From: an uncultured Gemmatimonadota bacterium
GTDB taxonomy: Bacteria; Gemmatimonadota; Gemmatimonadetes; Gemmatimonadales; GWC2-71-9
NCBI GenBank assembly: GCA_946479825.1
Contig: CAMLHU010000111.1
Coordinates: 1 to 7,012, forward strand
Direction of reading: 5' to 3'
Length of the DNA: 7,012 nucleotides
Made by a program: the position numbers and the translations under genes. Position 1 is the stretch's first letter. Each line of letters begins with the position of its first letter. A model generated the notes under the pieces. The model had not been told where the DNA came from, made no database searches, and worked only from the letters and a program-made list of their open reading frames with translations. This document shows positions 1 to 7,012 of the stretch, in pieces.

Positions 1-180
1 CAGGGGTTGTCGCTGTTCATCGCGGCGGGCTCGGTGGCCGGACTCGCCTGGCACTTTGTGCACGGCGGCCAGTCCAACGGCGACGTGCTGGCGCTCCTCG
101 TGCCGGTGAACCTCGGCGTGGCGGCCAGCGTGTGGTGGGGGGAGCTGCGTGGGACATCCGGACCGTCGATCGGGACCTGA
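1..180 (+). CDS. C-terminal end of a membrane protein (5' partial)
   Basis: Reading frame 1 is open from the first base to a TGA at 178-180, giving 59 residues of a protein whose start lies outside the window. Codons are strongly G/C-ending like the neighbouring genes, which supports real coding. Two hydrophobic stretches are visible, roughly residues 3-19 and 29-46 of the fragment, separated by a short polar segment containing HGGQSNGD, followed by a short hydrophilic tail. This looks like the last two transmembrane helices of an integral membrane protein. I do not recognise the family and assign no function. It converges on the HD-GYP gene, with 33 bases between the two stop codons, so it is not part of the minus-strand operon. 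Confidence 0.65.
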   Translation, partial: QGLSLFIAAGSVAGLAWHFVHGGQSNGDVLALLVPVNLGVAASVWWGELRGTSGPSIGT

Positions 181-187
181 CGTGGGC

Positions 188-212
188 GCGGCGGGGTCGG
201 GCCGCCGACCGC
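188..212. terminator. Candidate hairpin between convergent genes
   Basis: The 33-base gap between two convergent stop codons contains a small GC-rich inverted repeat: GGTCGG (195-200) pairs with CCGACC (205-210) around a GCCG loop. An alternative pairing, CGGCGG (189-194) with CCGCCG (202-207), uses the same bases. The location fits a bidirectional terminator. Neither side has a clear run of T, so this is a weak candidate based on position and pairing only. Confidence 0.3.
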
Positions 213-213
213 C

Positions 214-2151
214 TCACCCTTCCTTTCGCTCGTACACCTTCGCGTCCACGAACACCTGGTAGAGGGCCGGGTCCAGCATCCCGGCCTTCACCTCGTCGGC
301 CATGATGTTGAGGGCCCGTTCGAGCGGAAGGGCGCGCTTGTAGGGGCGATCCGAGGCCGTGAGCGCGTCGAAGATGTCGGCGATCGTCATCATCCGGGTC
401 TGGATCGGGATGGCCTCCCCCTTGATGCGCCGAGGGTAGCCTGAGCCGTCGAGCTTCTCGTGGTGCCCGTGTGCGATGTCCGGCACGCCCTGCAGCTCGC
501 GCGTCCAGGGGATCTTCCGGAGGAACCAGTAGGTGTGGGTCACGTGGCTCTCGATCTCGAGCCGCTCGGCCTCGTCGAGGCTCCCCTTGCGGATGCTGAG
601 GAACCGGACCTCGTCGTCGGTGAGGTAGGGGAGCACCGCCCCCTCGATGCTCTCGTAGGTCCGCTCGGCGAACTCCTGCAGCCGCTCGAAATTCCCCTCC
701 GGCAGCACCGTCGGCTCGTTGGACTCGAGCACCAGCCCGATGAAGCGGTCGAGCGCGGCGCTCTCGGCCTCGAACTCCGCCCGGATCCGGCGGAGGTGTT
801 CGTCGTATCCCTCGCGTCCGTGGCGCTCCAGGTGGTCGGCGCGCTGCTGCTCGAAGCGCCACTGGGCGGTGCGCTGCAGGAAGGCGTGGCGCTGGCGGAT
901 GAGCGCCAGGTCGGCGGCGTAGAGCTTCTTGGCCTTGACCAGCACCTGCTCGCGCACGCCGACCTTGCCGAAGTCGTGCAGCAGGCCGGCGTAGCGCAGC
1001 TCGCGGATCTGCTCCGGCGAGAAGGTGACCGCGCGGAACGGCCCGTCCTGCACCCGGTCCACCGAGGTGGCGAGCTCCACGCTCATCGTCGCCACCCGGA
1101 GCGAATGGCCCGAGGTGGTCGGGTCGCGCTGCTCGATGGCCGTCACGGCCGCCTTCACGAACCCCTCGAACAGCCGCTCGATGGCCTCGTAGAGCTGGCT
1201 GTTCTCGACCGACACCCCCGCCTGGCCGGCCAGCGCCTTCACCAGCTTCACCGTATGCGGCGAATACGCCAGCACCTCGCGCTCCGCGTCCTCCGGCGCG
1301 TGGAGCACGGTCTCCGCCCGGCGCTTCCGGTTGATGAGCTGCAGCACCCCGATGGTCTCGTTGTGATGGTTGAGCATCGGGATGCTCAGCATCGAGCGGG
1401 TGCGGTAGCCGTAGCGCTGGTCGAACGAGCGGTTGAACGAGTACTCGACGTCGGGCGGCAGGGTGTAGACGTCGTCGATGACGAGAGGCTCGCCCTCGGC
1501 GGCGGCGTACCCGGCGATCGAGGCGTGGTCGATCGGGATGGTGAACTCGACGAACGGGATGTCGGGCCGGCTGTGGTTCTGGCTCAGCTTGAAGCGGAGC
1601 CGCCGTCGCCCCTGTTCGTCCTGCTCGACGAGGTAGAGGCTTCCGGCGTCCGACTGGGTGATGCGCCGGGCCTGGGTCAGGATCGTCTCGAGCAGGCGGT
1701 TGTAGTCGCGCTCGGTGCTGAGGCGGATCCCGATCTCGGTGAGCTCGCCCAGTTCGTCGGCCCGCGCGGCGCCGTCCCCCCGCGCCCGTGCCACCTCGCG
1801 CCGCACCGCCGCCGTCTTGAAGGCCGCGCGCAGGGCGAGGAGCGTCTCCCTCGGCCCCGCCGGCGCCTTGACGAACCCGGCGAGGGCGGTCGCGGGGAGC
1901 TCGGCCGGGAGGTCGGCCTCGCCGGGGGCGCCGATCGCGAGGATCCCGGCGCCGGCGTCGGCCAGGGCCTCGAGCAGGCCGGGGGCCCACGCGGTGCGGG
2001 CGGCGGGGTCGAGGACCAGGACGGTCGGATGGTCGTCGAGGGTGATCGGCGCCCCCGGCGCGATGGCGCGCACCACCACGCCCTCGGCGTCGAGCGCCGG
2101 GCGCACCGGGGTCGGATCCCACCCCGCGGGATGGAGCAAGATGTAGGTCAT
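214..2151 (-). CDS. Pseudo-receiver/GAF/HD-GYP protein, probable c-di-GMP phosphodiesterase
   Basis: This 645-residue protein is predicted cytoplasmic. Residues 1-118 resemble a response-regulator receiver: D48 sits after a hydrophobic strand and K95 lies in a 'FVKAP' context, but the N-terminal acidic pair is missing, so phosphorylation is doubtful. Residues about 135-318 form a GAF sensor domain. Residues about 325-645 form an HD-GYP domain, with GHS (H349), HD (392-393), H536, HHE (563-565), DGSGYP (568-573) and D592 in ADIFDAL, so the expected metal ligands are present. The family hydrolyses cyclic-di-GMP. The position of the third-metal glutamate (four before H349) is T345, suggesting a two-metal centre. 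About 144 residues separate HD from H536, against about 28 normally, so a large insertion is present. The ATG lies in an ATGA overlap with the MCE gene, with a GGAGG six bases upstream. It is the last gene of the operon. Confidence 0.9.
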   Translation of the reverse strand: MTYILLHPAGWDPTPVRPALDAEGVVVRAIAPGAPITLDDHPTVLVLDPAARTAWAPGLLEALADAGAGILAIGAPGEADLPAELPATALAGFVKAPAGPRETLLALRAAFKTAAVRREVARARGDGAARADELGELTEIGIRLSTERDYNRLLETILTQARRITQSDAGSLYLVEQDEQGRRRLRFKLSQNHSRPDIPFVEFTIPIDHASIAGYAAAEGEPLVIDDVYTLPPDVEYSFNRSFDQRYGYRTRSMLSIPMLNHHNETIGVLQLINRKRRAETVLHAPEDAEREVLAYSPHTVKLVKALAGQAGVSVENSQLYEAIERLFEGFVKAAVTAIEQRDPTTSGHSLRVATMSVELATSVDRVQDGPFRAVTFSPEQIRELRYAGLLHDFGKVGVREQVLVKAKKLYAADLALIRQRHAFLQRTAQWRFEQQRADHLERHGREGYDEHLRRIRAEFEAESAALDRFIGLVLESNEPTVLPEGNFERLQEFAERTYESIEGAVLPYLTDDEVRFLSIRKGSLDEAERLEIESHVTHTYWFLRKIPWTRELQGVPDIAHGHHEKLDGSGYPRRIKGEAIPIQTRMMTIADIFDALTASDRPYKRALPLERALNIMADEVKAGMLDPALYQVFVDAKVYERKEG

Positions 2152-3095
2152 TGCTGGCCTCCGCCGGCGGCGGCGTGGGCGCGCGCGGAGTCAGGGGGCG
2201 GGGGGTGGACGCCGCTCAGCATCCGGAGCGGCCGGCGGCTCACCTGGTCCACGAAGTATTCGAGCTGGGCGCTGGTCGCCTGCAGGTTGGCCACCGTCGC
2301 CCGGATGTCCTCGCGATTCTCCGTCCCCATCGTCCGTGCCAGGTTGACCAGGCTGTCGAGGTGGAGGGTGAGGGCGTGGGCCGTGCCGAGGGTGCGCACC
2401 AGCGAGTCCTGCAGCACGCGGAAGTGCCCGTCGGCGCTCGACACGAGCGTGTCGGCGTGGCGGAGCAGGGGCTGCAGTTCCGCCAGCGTGGCCGCGACCC
2501 CGGCGATGGACCGTTGCAGCGCCGGGGCGGCGTCGTTCACCTGGCGGTGGACCAGCCGCACGGTCCCGTCCACGTCCTGCAGCACGGTGCGGGTGTCGGT
2601 GAGGACGAGGGAGACCTGGCGCGCCAGCGAGTCGGCCACCTGCGCGATCTGGTCGAGCGGCGTGGTGTGCCGCACCGAGCCGATCGTGTCGTCGGGGTTG
2701 AGCATCGCGCCCGACGCGGCGGCCGGCGTGTTGAGCGAGATCACCGCGCCGCCCAGTGCGCTCGCCGCCGCGATCTCGGCGGTGGTGCCGACCGGCAGGC
2801 GGACCGGGCTGCCGTCCTCGAAGTGCTGGTCGATCCGCACCCGAACCAGGAACGACAGCGCCCCGTGGGCCCCGTCGATCCTGGGGTTCACCGCCGCGAC
2901 CCGCCCGACCTCGAGGCCCTGGAGGAACACCTTGGTGTCGGCGTTCAGGTCCTGGGCCGACGCGGCGGTGATGTAGAGGTCCCAGCGGCGCTGGTTCCAC
3001 CCCAGCGTGAAGTACACCGCCACGGCCAGCACCAGGGCCACGCCCACGACGAGGGCCCCCACCAGCGTGTCGGCCTGGCGCTCGGAGAGGCTCAC
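2148..3095 (-). CDS. mlaD: MlaD-type MCE-domain lipid transport protein
   Basis: This 315-residue protein is the periplasmic substrate-binding component of an Mla-type phospholipid transporter. One N-terminal transmembrane helix (about residues 11-31) anchors it to the inner membrane. A single MCE domain follows (about 37-125), with family features visible: VFLQGLEVGRVAAV (56-69), strands with the LPVGTTAEI element (100-108), and SALGG (112-116) before the last strand. Residues about 145-290 are predominantly helical heptad-like sequence typical of longer MCE proteins, where the helices form a channel or tether. The tail is proline- and alanine-rich and probably disordered. E. coli MlaD is shorter (about 180 residues), so the helical extension is substantial. 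The start is GTG, in a GTGA overlap with the upstream ABC gene, and the stop overlaps the HD-GYP start (ATGA). The MCE assignment is secure; the transported lipid and the direction of transport cannot be read from sequence. Confidence 0.9.
   Translation of the reverse strand: MSLSERQADTLVGALVVGVALVLAVAVYFTLGWNQRRWDLYITAASAQDLNADTKVFLQGLEVGRVAAVNPRIDGAHGALSFLVRVRIDQHFEDGSPVRLPVGTTAEIAAASALGGAVISLNTPAAASGAMLNPDDTIGSVRHTTPLDQIAQVADSLARQVSLVLTDTRTVLQDVDGTVRLVHRQVNDAAPALQRSIAGVAATLAELQPLLRHADTLVSSADGHFRVLQDSLVRTLGTAHALTLHLDSLVNLARTMGTENREDIRATVANLQATSAQLEYFVDQVSRRPLRMLSGVHPPPPDSARAHAAAGGGQQ
2158..2162 (-). promoter_or_regulatory. Ribosome binding site of the HD-GYP gene
   Basis: On the minus strand GGAGG lies 6 bases before the ATG at 2151-2149, inside the 3' end of the MCE gene. 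It confirms that start and shows that the last operon gene has its own ribosome site as well as a 4-base stop/start overlap. Confidence 0.7.
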
Positions 3096-3757
3096 GCCGC
3101 CCCCGCGCCCGCGGGGAGGGGACCGACGTGCACCTGGCGTTCCACCCGGGTGCGGAGCATCGCCGGGATCTCCTGGCTGGTGATGAATACGGTGCGCCGG
3201 CCGCCCAGGGCGGTGTCGCCGCCGCGGGCCACCTCGAGCAGCTCTCCCGCGACGCGGTCGGAGAGCCCGACGAACGGCTGCTCCAGCACCACCAGCTCGG
3301 GGTCGAACGCGAGCGCGCGGCCGAGCGCCGCCCGGCGCCGCTCCTCGGCCGAGGCTTCGGCCGGGCGCGCCGCCGCGACGGCCCGCAGGCGCAGCTGGGC
3401 CAGGATCACGTCCACGCGCCCTTCGATCTCGTCGGAGCGGAAGTCACTGCCGAAGCGGAGCGGGAGCCGGATGTTGTCGCGCAGGGAGAGGTTCTGGAGC
3501 AATCCATCACCTGTCGGAAGGTATCCCACCCGGCGGCGGAAGGCGAGCTTGGCCCGGCGCGGCAGGGCCCCCACGGCGACACCCAGCGTCTCGGCCGCGC
3601 CGCCGCCGGGCTCCTGGAGGCCGAGGGCGAAGCTGCCCAGCTGGTCCACGCCGCTCGCAGCGTCACCGGTCACCACGACCGTCTCGTGGTCGGCCACCGT
3701 GAGCGAGAACGGCCCGTGCCGGAGGGGGACGGCGTCGAAGCGGAGCGGGGCGGTCAT
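3092..3757 (-). CDS. MlaF-like ABC protein lacking ATPase motifs (probable pseudo-ATPase)
   Basis: These 221 residues align end to end with the ATP-binding subunit of MlaE-type transporters by position and framework: RRRVGYL (74-80), LSLRDNIRLPL (90-100), ALGRALAFDPELVVLEQP (144-161). The catalytic residues are all changed. Walker A reads GDAASGVDQ (31-39), so the lysine is V37 and the next S/T is D38. The Q-loop position is T82. The signature LSGGQ/M is ASAEE (135-139). Walker B ends LEQP (158-161), with aspartate as E159 and catalytic glutamate as Q160. The H-loop histidine is S194. The frame is uninterrupted, with 4-base overlaps on both sides (ATGA with MlaE, GTGA with MlaD), so this is a maintained gene and not decay. 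It probably keeps the MlaF fold and binds MlaE, but hydrolysis by this subunit is unlikely. Family placement is firm; loss of activity is inferred from motifs. Confidence 0.85.
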   Translation of the reverse strand: MTAPLRFDAVPLRHGPFSLTVADHETVVVTGDAASGVDQLGSFALGLQEPGGGAAETLGVAVGALPRRAKLAFRRRVGYLPTGDGLLQNLSLRDNIRLPLRFGSDFRSDEIEGRVDVILAQLRLRAVAAARPAEASAEERRRAALGRALAFDPELVVLEQPFVGLSDRVAGELLEVARGGDTALGGRRTVFITSQEIPAMLRTRVERQVHVGPLPAGAGAA

Positions 3758-4539
3758 GCGCGGAAGACCACCACGAAGAGGGCCGTCACCACGAAGATGA
3801 GCACGATCGAGCTCACCGTCCCCCGGATGACGGCGCGCGGGATCTCGGTGGGGCTCCGGCCCACCCGGAGGCCGTGGAAGCTCGGCAGGGTGCCGATGAT
3901 CAGCCCGAAGCTCATCCCCTTGAGCACCGTGAGCAGGACGTCGGTCAGGTCGAGGGCGCCGAGGACGCTGGCCAGGTAGCGGCCGCCGGACATCCCCTCG
4001 ACGCCGGCGGCGAGGAAGCCGCCGCAGAGCGCCACGACGTCGAACAGCACGATGAGCAGCGTCACGGCCACCGTGCAGCCCAGGACGCGCGGCAGGACCA
4101 GGTAGTGGTTCGGGTCGATCCCGATGGCCTCGAGGGCGCGGACCTCGCCCAGGACCGCGTTGGTGGCGAGCTCGGCGCTGATCGCGGTGCCGCTCCGGCC
4201 GACCACGGCGATGGCGGTGAGCAGCGGGCCGAGGAGGCGGACGATGGAGACCACCAGGAGCTGGCCGATCAGGTCCGTGGCGCCCACCTGGCCGAGCTCG
4301 CGGACGGACATCTGGATCACGACGAAGCTCAGGATCCCGCCCAGGAGGATCACGAGCGGCACCGCCTGCAGGGCGGTGAAGCGGAGCTGGTTGAGGAGCA
4401 CCCGGGCGGTGACCCGGCGCCCCGCCCCCGGCAGCGACGGGGCGGAGGCCGCCACGTCGAACGCGAAGCGCGCCGGCGCCCCGACGACGGAGAGCCGGCG
4501 CGCGGTCGCGCGTCCGATCCGGGCGAGGTGCCCGGTCAC
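3754..4539 (-). CDS. mlaE: MlaE/YrbE-family ABC transporter permease
   Basis: At 261 residues this matches the family's usual length of about 260. It is the inner-membrane permease that contacts MCE proteins and moves phospholipids. An amphipathic N-terminal region (1-50) precedes hydrophobic helices at about 54-77, 92-112, 146-178, 199-218 and 241-259. The family hallmark is clear: GRSGTAISAEL (114-124) followed by EVRALEAIGIDP (132-143), the cytoplasmic coupling segment that in E. coli MlaE reads EIDALEVMGIDP and docks on the ATPase MlaF. The start is GTG, 4 bases after the stop of the upstream CsgG-like gene; no strong Shine-Dalgarno and no in-frame start immediately upstream are seen, so coupled translation is likely. 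The stop overlaps the MlaF-like start (ATGA). The permease looks fully conserved even though its partner ATPase is degenerate. Confidence 0.93.
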   Translation of the reverse strand: MTGHLARIGRATARRLSVVGAPARFAFDVAASAPSLPGAGRRVTARVLLNQLRFTALQAVPLVILLGGILSFVVIQMSVRELGQVGATDLIGQLLVVSIVRLLGPLLTAIAVVGRSGTAISAELATNAVLGEVRALEAIGIDPNHYLVLPRVLGCTVAVTLLIVLFDVVALCGGFLAAGVEGMSGGRYLASVLGALDLTDVLLTVLKGMSFGLIIGTLPSFHGLRVGRSPTEIPRAVIRGTVSSIVLIFVVTALFVVVFRA

Positions 4540-4543
4540 GGCA

Positions 4544-5245
4544 TCACGACTGGGAGACCCGCTTCAGGCCTTCGGTGGCCGGCGTGTAGTCCGGATACGC
4601 CTTCACCGCCTGCTGGTAGAACTCCTTGGCCTTGGCCTTGTCGCCCCGGTCCTCATAGAGCAGCGCGCGGCTGTAGAGCGTGAGCGCCTCGGTCGGGACG
4701 TTCTGCTTCTTGACCGCCTCGGCCACCTGCTTCGGGAGCGGCGGGAGGTTGGTGCCGTCCATCAGCTTCTGGGCCACCGACTGGAAGATCTTGAACATCT
4801 CCTTCCGGTCGTGCATCGAGTCGTCGTTGGCGACCGACTTGATGATCTCGCCGGTCTCCACGTCGATGATCCGCGCGGTGAGGCGGAAGTCGCCGTAGAG
4901 GTCGATGAACGTGCCGGTGACCATGTACCGGGCGCCCACCAGCTTGCCGACCTTGGCCGCCGTGGCGGCGTCCACCCGGCCGTCCTTCGCCAGGTTCTGC
5001 TCGTCGAGGACCTTGTTGATGACCGACCGGTCCACCACCCGCGCGGCGGGGTTGGCCTGGAGGTCGTTGATGAGGAACGCCGGGATCCCGTTCTGCAGGG
5101 CGGCGAAGTCCTCCTTGTCCCGCCCGTAGGAGCCGCCGTTCTCGAACGGCAGCACCGCGATGCCCGGGCGGGTGTCCTGCTGCTGGGCGCGCGCGGCCGG
5201 GGCCGCGAGGCACAGGGCGAGCAGGGCGAGGGTGAGGCGCTTCAT
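4544..5245 (-). CDS. Secreted CsgG/TolB-N-like protein with TPR-like C-terminus
   Basis: This 233-residue exported protein begins with a classical signal peptide ([20 protein letters not shown]), probably cut after ARA-20; no proper lipobox surrounds C12, so it is probably soluble and periplasmic, not a lipoprotein. Residues about 27-165 match the CsgG/FlgO/GNA1162-like fold: [10 protein letters not shown] (29-38), a helix ending in [36 protein letters not shown] (104-114), then [18 protein letters not shown] (121-138). Residues about 184-225 resemble one TPR unit ([34 protein letters not shown]). Family members assemble in or on the outer membrane or act as envelope adaptors; the role here is unknown. 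The ATG is supported by GAGGAG 8 bases upstream. It lies 15 bases after the MBL gene and 4 before mlaE, so it may be an envelope partner of the transporter. That partnership is inferred from position only. Confidence 0.85.
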
Positions 5246-5253
5246 GGGTAACG

Positions 5254-5259
5254 CTCCTC
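5254..5259 (-). promoter_or_regulatory. Ribosome binding site of the CsgG-like gene
   Basis: On the minus strand GAGGAG lies 8 bases before the ATG at 5245-5243, filling most of the 15-base gap after the MBL stop codon. It fixes the start that gives a proper signal peptide. Confidence 0.7.
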
Positions 5260-5260
5260 G

Positions 5261-6127
<867 letters not shown>

Positions 6128-6165
6128 AGGGGCGTGGCTGGCATCCGAAGAAGATGGCGACGACC

Positions 6166-6203
6166 GCCCGCCGGGCCCGTGACCGGGCTCACGAGCGGCG
6201 GGC
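6166..6203 (-). terminator. Hairpin at the end of the CRP-family gene (possible terminator or attenuator)
   Basis: GCCCGCCG (6166-6173) pairs perfectly with CGGCGGGC (6196-6203), and inside it GCCCG (6175-6179) pairs with CGGGC (6184-6188) around a 4-base TGAC loop. The structure spans the stop codon of the CRP-family gene (6191-6189). On the minus strand it is followed within about 15 bases by a mildly U-rich CATCTTCTTC but by no true U-tract, so termination would be partial at best. It may reduce read-through into the MBL operon or only stabilise the transcript end. Confidence 0.4.
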
Positions 6204-6866
6204 CGCGCGCATCAGCGCGGGGCGGTCGGCGATGGTCACGTCGCGGCGGGTCACGTGGATCAGCCCGCGGTCGGCGAAGTCGCGCATCGTCCGCGACACC
6301 GTCTCGCGGCTCGAGCCGATCATCTGGGCGATGGTGTGGTGCGTGAGCTTCCGGGTGATCCGGTCGCCCCCCTCCTCCTCGGAGAGGCGGAGGAGCAGCT
6401 CGGCCACCCGGCCGTTGACGTCGAGCAGGACGAGGCCGCCGATCTTCTGGTCGGCCTGCCGGAGCCGCCGCGAGAGCTCGCGCAGCAGCGCGATGGCGAC
6501 CTCGGGGGAGGAGCGGAGCCGGGCCTGGAAATCCTCGCGCCGGAGCGCCAGGACCGTCGCGTCCTCCATCGCGATGACGTGGGCCGAGCGGGGTTCGTCG
6601 TCGAGCAGCGACATCTCGCCGAAGAACGTCCCCTCGCCCAGCACCGAGAGGATGACCTCGCGGCCGTCCTCGCCGATCAGGACCACCTTCACCTGGCCCG
6701 AGGCGACCACGTAGAGCGCGTCGCCCGGATCGTCCTCGAAGAGGATCACGCTCCCCTTCGGATAGGCCCGCTCCCGGAGGAGGTCCGCGAAGGCCGCGAG
6801 ATCCGCTTCCGGCAAGGAATGGAACAGGGGGACCTTCTGCAGGACCGCGACCGGTGCCACGGGCAA
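6189..6866 (-). CDS. CRP/FNR-family transcriptional regulator
   Basis: This 225-residue cytoplasmic DNA-binding regulator is of the usual family length. The cyclic-nucleotide-binding beta-barrel spans about residues 13-125. The phosphate-binding cassette FFGEMSLLDDEPRSAHV (81-97) keeps the glycine-glutamate pair (83-84) and the RSA (93-95) that contact the ribose and phosphate in CRP, so a cyclic nucleotide ligand is credible. A dimerisation helix follows (about 121-145), then a winged helix-turn-helix with TIAQMIGSSRETVSRTMRDF (178-197). No cysteine is present, ruling out an FNR-type iron-sulphur sensor. The start is probably TTG at 6866-6864, with a GAGG five bases upstream; GTG at 6860-6858, two codons in, is the alternative. 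A promoter lies just upstream. Next downstream is the MBL gene, 61 bases away and beyond a hairpin. Targets and ligand are unknown. Confidence 0.92.
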   Translation of the reverse strand: MPVAPVAVLQKVPLFHSLPEADLAAFADLLRERAYPKGSVILFEDDPGDALYVVASGQVKVVLIGEDGREVILSVLGEGTFFGEMSLLDDEPRSAHVIAMEDATVLALRREDFQARLRSSPEVAIALLRELSRRLRQADQKIGGLVLLDVNGRVAELLLRLSEEEGGDRITRKLTHHTIAQMIGSSRETVSRTMRDFADRGLIHVTRRDVTIADRPALMRAARRS

Positions 6867-6899
6867 GGGCGCCTCGAGGGGGTGGAAGTAGCGGCCCGT

Positions 6900-6928
6900 A
6901 CGTTACTTGCGGCCTTTCGGTGTGTCAA
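6900..6928 (-). promoter_or_regulatory. Sigma70-like promoter for the CRP-family gene
   Basis: On the minus strand a perfect TTGACA (-35, 6928-6923) is followed after exactly 17 bases by TAACGT (-10, 6905-6900). The -10 matches the consensus only at its first, second and last bases, which are the most important ones. Transcription would start near 6893, giving a leader of about 27 bases before the TTG start. The ideal spacing and placement make it convincing by inspection. I see no CRP-like palindrome overlapping it, so no autoregulatory site can be claimed. Confidence 0.65.
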
Positions 6929-6938
6929 ATTGGAGGGA

Positions 6939-7012
6939 GGGCTCAGGGCGTAGGGCGTAGGGCGTAGGGCGTAGGGCTTAGGGCTTAGGGGTCAGGGGTC
7001 AGGGGTCAGGGG
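6939..7012. repeat. Heptanucleotide tandem repeat array, G-rich on the plus strand
   Basis: Ten consecutive 7-base units plus a 4-base remnant run to the window edge: GGGCTCA once (6939-6945), GGGCGTA four times (6946-6973), GGGCTTA twice (6974-6987), GGGGTCA three times (6988-7008), then GGGG (7009-7012). All units keep a GGG start and an A end and stay in the same 7-base phase; only the middle varies, in homogeneous blocks, as expected from slippage or unequal exchange. The array begins 10 bases upstream of the -35 hexamer and contains no coding signal. Its full length is unknown because it leaves the window. Confidence 0.9.
6988..7012 (+). other. Perfect four-tract G-quadruplex motif
   Basis: Four runs of GGGG (6988-6991, 6995-6998, 7002-7005, 7009-7012) are separated by identical three-base TCA loops, matching the canonical rule for a stable intramolecular G-quadruplex with four stacked tetrads. 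It is on the plus strand, the template for the CRP-family gene. The neighbouring GGGC units provide additional three-G tracts. Folding is predicted from pattern only. Confidence 0.7.

Follow-up and report, generated by a model that had tools for sequence, protein, structure and literature searches.

How might a lipid transporter of the Mla type work when the ATP-binding cassette (ABC) subunit encoded in its own operon lacks the residues for binding and hydrolyzing ATP? This question is raised by a 7,012-nucleotide stretch of DNA from an uncultured Gemmatimonadota bacterium (assembly GCA_946479825.1, contig CAMLHU010000111.1, positions 1 to 7,012), referred to here as the window. Between the genes for an MlaE permease and an MlaD protein it encodes a degenerate relative of MlaF, which we call pseudo-MlaF. 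By its sequence, pseudo-MlaF is a conserved, ancient and dedicated pseudo-ATPase of an Mla-type operon. At roughly even odds (a probability of about 0.5), we favor the reading that Gemmatimonadota have an additional lipid transport complex of the MCE (Mla) type that runs without ATP, in which pseudo-MlaF serves as a structural clamp.

An MlaF-like protein without catalytic residues

The window encodes an MlaE permease and an MCE-domain protein within one operon, and both pass their Pfam cut-offs, which places the operon among Mla/MCE systems. The core genes and the altered positions of pseudo-MlaF are as follows.

3754..4539, minus strand: mlaE, permease (PF02405, 180.8 bits, above the cut-off)
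3092..3757, minus strand: pseudo-mlaF, 221 amino acids, ABC nucleotide-binding-domain (NBD) fold without the ATPase residues
2148..3095, minus strand: mlaD, with a transmembrane helix, an MCE domain and, in the model, long helices 146-223 and 227-287 (PF02470, 37.5 bits, above the cut-off)
3644..3667, minus strand: Walker A relic GDAASGVD, residues 31-38, Lys replaced by V37 and Ser/Thr by D38
3512..3514, minus strand: Q-loop position, Gln replaced by T82 (LPTGDG)
3341..3355, minus strand: signature relic ASAEE, residues 135-139
3278..3283, minus strand: Walker B relic, E159 and Q160
3176..3178, minus strand: H-loop position, His replaced by S194

These replacements are exactly those named in a sequence-only reading of the window, with the nuance that S136 of the LSGGQ signature is still serine in this copy. 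The same reading had described an intact frame overlap-coupled to both mlaE and mlaD, and the 221-residue frame indeed overlaps each neighbor by 4 nucleotides. Pseudo-MlaF matches Pfam ABC_tran (34.4 bits; cut-off 25) and scores far under the cut-offs of all 25 NCBIfam models listed. It misses the NCBIfam equivalog NF008809 (58.9 bits against a cut-off of 441), a model that canonical MlaF-like proteins of the phylum also miss (173-191 bits). The closest solved structure is E. coli MlaF (E = 4e-15), and the NBD fold is retained in the predicted model. The residues that mark an MlaF/ABC ATPase are absent at Walker A, Walker B, the signature and the H-loop. Judged by these replacements, ATP binding and hydrolysis are presumably absent from pseudo-MlaF.

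Relatives share the same losses

A search over 5.8 billion proteins found 864 relatives of pseudo-MlaF, 120 of them listed (62-100% identity); the counts that follow refer to those 120. A taxon is named for 11, all Gemmatimonadales or Gemmatimonadota. The Walker A lysine is present in 0/119 and replaced by valine in 119/119 (one sequence ends short), and the adjoining Ser/Thr is canonical in 1/119. The Q-loop glutamine survives in 1/120. At the signature, neither the leucine nor the first glycine is found (0/120 each), the serine is kept in 19/120, and the second glycine is glutamate in all 120. Walker B varies most among the motifs, with its Asp in 33/120 and its Glu in 11/120. The H-loop histidine is absent throughout (0/120), and two sequences have a histidine one residue downstream. 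The relic blocks are themselves conserved (GDExSGVD, LPAGDG and the RRTVFITGQDLP-type block), and the blocks retained include GLLQNLSLRDN after the Q-loop and the region around RPA..E..RRRAAL. Among 33 sequences, G31 and G36 of the relic P-loop are invariant and S35 and L40 are at least 90% conserved.

We then placed the protein in genomes, using samples of 395 from the phylum, with the best 6 or 7 candidates scored per genome, and 201 from the order. Pseudo-MlaF finds matches at E = 1e-40 or better in 22 of the 395 phylum genomes, whose loci we call clade A. A broader NBD profile added one more match, a fragment at a contig end, and 26 of the 201 order genomes match, including all 23 from the phylum sample. 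A contig scan covering the best 80 of 220 loci reached two members, both Gemmatimonadetes. The window copy is 72-77% identical to its thirteen best matches on other contigs.

The motif GK[ST] is found in 0/22 clade A pseudo-NBDs. All 37 NBDs at other MlaE loci, from 21 of the 22 genomes, are intact, with GKS, SGG, DEP and the histidine. Therefore, the losses belong to the pseudo-MlaF locus and not to the organisms or their assemblies. Close orthologs with intact Walker motifs, which would have pointed to a recent mutant or a sequencing artifact, were sought among the 120 listed relatives and in the phylum and order genomes, and none were found; the orthologs instead share the same losses. A recent mutation or sequencing artifact is ruled out by these shared losses (22/22 genomes), the 72-77% identical relatives and the intact paralogs.

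The NBD-profile and MlaE-profile searches yielded no intermediates between canonical and dead NBDs. NBD profile scores fall from 1.9e-42 (the contig-end fragment) to 1e-32 (canonical), and members of a second clade, clade B, described below, are found among the canonical scores beneath. An MlaE-NBD fusion, suggested by stop-to-stop frames of about 500 amino acids, was rejected: what precedes the NBD in these frames is not MlaE, which is encoded in a different frame.

Constraint and gene order in clade A

The ratio of nonsynonymous to synonymous substitution rates (dN/dS) was estimated by the Nei-Gojobori method on sequences that are GC-rich and partly saturated. Of 253 clade A pseudo-NBD pairs, 208 have dS below 2, and every one of these has a dN/dS below 1 (median 0.395, maximum 0.774); the closest pair gives 0.14. 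The median is close to that of canonical NBDs (0.354 from 549 of 666 pairs, with a maximum of 1.466 from a divergent row). The same method yields single pairs above 1 for mlaD, for the CsgG/LpoB gene and for canonical NBDs. No internal stops occur in any listed member match of the phylum and order searches. Pseudo-MlaF thus shows neither the relaxed constraint nor the broken frames of a pseudogene, and it is probably kept under purifying selection.

As far as the contigs reach, all 22 clade A loci have the order crp-mbl-CsgG/LpoB-mlaE-pseudoF-mlaD-HD-GYP. The complete seven-gene order and orientation of the window is present in 19 genomes, one with the hydrolase gene (mbl) split over two frames and another with the HD-GYP gene cut. 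The remaining three loci lack outer genes at contig ends, and none is out of order.

That pseudo-MlaF is a decaying or neutral relic, or an artifact, is hardly credible. The missing catalytic motifs would fit such a relic, but the uninterrupted frames, dN/dS below 1, fixed synteny and 72-77% identity to the thirteen best matches on other contigs all speak against it. The maintained pseudo-ATPase of the sequence-only reading is strongly supported by the shared losses, the conserved synteny, the dN/dS values and the intact paralogs in the same genomes.

A second clade with a motif-free subunit

A profile of the MlaE lineage linked to pseudo-MlaF finds 30 of the 395 phylum genomes with E values of 3e-63 or better, followed by a gap to 3e-47. 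Seven of the 30 are additional genomes (G083, G353, G124, G086, G204, G316 and G059), which form clade B. Each has a motif-free NBD between mlaE and mlaD; the place of the P-loop is taken by RTTPxRS in six and by GAPPSAG in G086. From below the gap we fetched nine of the next ten genomes, leaving out G098: all eight NBDs have Walker A and the signature (8/8), one of them (G336) with an altered Walker B, and the ninth was a fragment that carried no NBD.

A protein search with the seven clade B NBDs gave 726 matches, 120 of them listed. Clade B accounts for the top 70, with E values up to 2e-41; a taxon is named in three (Gemmatimonadetes twice, Longimicrobiales once). The signature is found in 0/70 and the P-loop in 0/66 of those long enough to include it, the lone regular-expression match sitting in a C-terminal tail. 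Of the other 50 listed matches, which start at 3e-20, 49 possess Walker A. The second signature glycine and the D-loop aspartate are gone from every genome member, in either clade, whose sequence covers these positions. We also took 51 columns conserved to 90% or more across 44 canonical NBDs and asked which of them both dead clades retain at a level of at least 80%. They retain none of the 15 catalytic columns, a set that we picked ourselves, compared with 11 of the 36 others (P = 0.022).

These data bear on an unconventional ATPase that would use other residues for ATP binding and hydrolysis. The lysine is relocated in some P-loop proteins, the fold is kept in the model, and some members retain isolated residues of the Q-loop, H-loop and Walker B. 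However, the relic P-loops of the two clades are unrelated, and no genome member that covers them keeps the second signature glycine or the D-loop aspartate. We consider this explanation very improbable.

The surroundings of clade B loci include rpoC nearby in 5/7 and a RidA-type gene in 5/7, with neighbor families confirmed by Pfam in one genome. In four of the seven operons, a PlsB-type glycerol-3-phosphate acyltransferase (GPAT) gene directly follows mlaD (L263:3922-5373; L264, L265 and L267), and none of these four genomes has another GPAT_C match. This neighbor ties the clade B system to phospholipid supply. We do not rely on co-occurrence of GPAT with the system (21/30 genomes with it, 8/30 without it; P = 0.0017), which is confounded by kinship.

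Within the fetched stretches, clade B has no Crp-family regulator and no HD-GYP/GAF neighbor. This matters for the idea of a ligand-sensing gate, in which the former ATP pocket would bind another ligand, which for clade A might be a cyclic nucleotide or the head group of a lipid, and would open or close the conduit. The clade A operon, with its Crp-family regulator and an HD-GYP/GAF protein whose motifs are present, fits such a gate, as does the conserved relic P-loop. Clade B has a different relic sequence and neither neighbor in those stretches, and we judge the gate to be rather unlikely.

The partner MlaE forms a lineage of its own

MlaE trees are free of the ATPase motifs. In our MlaE tree, clades A and B (33 rows) lie on one side of a branch with 100/100 support and 51 other MlaE proteins lie on the other. 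The NBD tree, which has long branches, agrees; both trees are unrooted. In every genome examined, this MlaE lineage sits beside a pseudo-NBD. On these sequences, catalysis was probably lost once, long ago, before clades A and B parted.

4120..4146, minus strand: MlaE coupling segment EVRALEAIG, residues 132-140, preceded by the lineage-specific G131

The coupling segment had been described as conserved, and this holds for its ALE core. The residue just before it has changed: position 131 is glycine in 33/33 members of the lineage and Glu or Gln in 51/51 other MlaE proteins. G131 is one of eleven MlaE positions that are at least 93% fixed in the lineage and at most 10% elsewhere. None of the eleven is charged in this comparison of 33 and 51 sequences, and we rejected proton coupling through a new invariant membrane charge in MlaE, none having been gained.

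A proposed structural clamp and its main competitor

The proposal of a clamped conduit builds on the NBD fold kept in the model, motifs gone in two clades with different replacements, the fixed clade A gene order, purifying selection and the separate MlaE lineage. Two pseudo-MlaF subunits would dock on the MlaE dimer and, acting as a structural clamp, lock it into a single conformation. Hexamers of MlaD, with their long helices, would carry the path further toward the outer membrane, and lipid would follow its own chemical potential instead of ATP. Flow would probably be outward, from newly made inner-membrane phospholipid; in Mla systems the direction of lipid movement is an open question, according to PMC10212509. 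A fuller version is tentative: a Gemmatimonadota MCE/Mla lineage may have given up ATP once, before the clades parted, leaving the NBD as a permanent clamp and MlaE-MlaD as a fuel-free conduit that carries fresh phospholipid outward.

Several observations weigh against the clamp. Some canonical residues survive among 27 members of clade A (Q-loop Gln in 2/27, signature Ser in 4/26 and first Gly in 1/26, Walker B Asp in 2/26 and Glu in 3/26). In clade B, the Q-loop Gln survives in 4/7 genomes and 33/70 homologs, and the H-loop His in 14/70. The GPAT link is absent from clade A. The length of the conduit comes from a single-chain MlaD model with a predicted local distance difference test score (pLDDT) of 78, lower toward the C-terminus, and the clamp and conduit are themselves deduced from sequences and models. 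No invariant charged residue that would hint at a different energy source has arisen in the MlaE lineage. TamB is found in 29/30 genomes with the system and in 30/30 without it (the lowest-numbered in the sample), and replacement of TamB was rejected. Moreover, other MlaE loci with a canonical NBD occur in 21/22 clade A genomes, another MlaE is present in all 11 further genomes searched, and a single orphan canonical MlaF (173-191 bits; next NBD 112) is encoded in 5/6 clade B genomes searched. A trans-acting MlaF could visit the pseudo-MlaF-linked MlaE too.

The sequence-only reading had called pseudo-MlaF the only encoded ABC subunit. This is true of the operon, which has no second NBD, and fails for the genomes of its relatives, most of which carry a canonical MlaF elsewhere. 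The one clade A genome without another MlaE, G388, is 1.8 Mb in size and has no TamB match either, and is therefore probably incomplete. In clade B, six MlaE loci (L340, L341, L342, L344, L345 and L346) consist of an mlaE-mlaD pair with no mlaF next to it, and Pfam identifies an LptF/LptG permease gene close to each. Four of the five orphan MlaF genes were checked for this neighbor, and all four have an ATP synthase alpha/beta-family gene close by. The orphan MlaF probably serves another MlaE-MlaD pair in trans.

A canonical MlaF from another locus could thus serve the pseudo-MlaF-linked MlaE, alone or in a heterodimer with pseudo-MlaF as an asymmetric or regulatory partner. The canonical NBDs of clade A, and the clade B pairs that presumably use an orphan MlaF, show that such proteins are available and that trans use probably occurs. 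However, each site of an ABC dimer needs the Walker A of one NBD and the signature of its partner. In a heterodimer both composite sites would be broken, one without Walker A and the other without the signature glycines, which disfavors an asymmetric dimer that hydrolyzes ATP. The six MlaE proteins presumably served in trans have TEQ before DALE (6/6), whereas the pseudo-MlaF-linked lineage has Gly in 33/33, suggesting that the coupling site has moved away from a canonical partner. A dedicated pseudo-mlaF is also kept beside this mlaE throughout the genomes examined. We regard service by a canonical MlaF as unlikely.

Relation to known systems

E. coli MlaFEDB and the minimal Veillonella parvula MlaEFD likewise encode MlaE, an MlaF-like ABC fold and an MCE protein together, as described in part of PMC10665443. 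The window resembles the Veillonella system in its long MlaD and in having no MlaA, MlaB or MlaC among its seven genes. It differs from both in that its NBD lacks the ATPase motifs and room for the C-terminal extension (tail lengths were measured from anchors that vary by at most 2 residues), in its own MlaE lineage and in an MlaD that, in the model, has no C-terminal beta-barrel (compared with the same excerpt, PMC10665443).

Heterodimeric ABC exporters with a degenerate site also keep a degenerate NBD under maintaining selection. In the cases quoted in the excerpted text, ATP is still bound at the degenerate site and the other site is intact (PMC7756269), whereas the complex encoded by the pseudo-MlaF operon could have no intact site. 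If our reading is true, this would be an ABC transporter with no intact ATP site in its own complex, a step beyond exporters with one degenerate site.

PqiABC and LetAB resemble the pseudo-MlaF system in pairing an MCE tunnel with an operon without a working ATPase, but their inner-membrane protein is unrelated and the pseudo-MlaF system retains ABC parts; if PqiA is a transporter, it may be passive or may use an unidentified ATPase or the proton-motive force (PMC10897342, in the passages available). SbmA/SLiPT, as excerpted in PMC13316013, has an ABC-type membrane domain that runs without ATP, like the proposed conduit, but it has no NBD and is proton-driven, whereas the pseudo-MlaF system keeps a dead one. 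Among the results listed from searches of open-license PMC text, we found no description of an Mla-type operon with a pseudo-ATPase. A natural lineage that has a disabled ATPase and keeps its permease and MCE tunnel separates energy use from the conduit, and it offers a natural case for asking how a lipid transporter works without fuel.

Other genes in the window and further loci

All seven genes of the window lie on the minus strand, and mlaD overlaps the HD-GYP gene by 4 nucleotides, as the core genes overlap one another. The remaining four genes are as follows.

6189..6866, minus strand: crp/fnr, Crp/Fnr-family regulator, conserved neighbor
5261..6127, minus strand: metallo-beta-lactamase-fold hydrolase, conserved neighbor
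4544..5245, minus strand: protein with a CsgG/LpoB-like N-terminal domain, TPR at the C-terminus and a signal-like N terminus
214..2151, minus strand: GAF and HD-GYP protein, with HDFGK and HHEKLDGSGYP present

The CsgG/LpoB-TPR gene adjoins mlaE in 22/22 clade A loci, and its product may be a partner of MlaD in the periplasm or outer membrane. The position of the GAF-HD-GYP gene next to mlaD is retained across clade A, a possible link between cyclic di-GMP and lipid transport.

Among other loci, L278 (G336) has an MlaE-linked NBD with Walker A and the signature intact and DDT for DEP at Walker B, and is perhaps impaired. L182 (G328) is a further divergent canonical MlaEF type that stands apart from the other paralogs in the MlaE tree. 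At two further clade B MlaE loci, L343 and L347, mlaF and mlaD are both missing from the vicinity. The end of the window (6945-7012) holds short direct repeats with the units gggcgta, gggctta and ggggtca.
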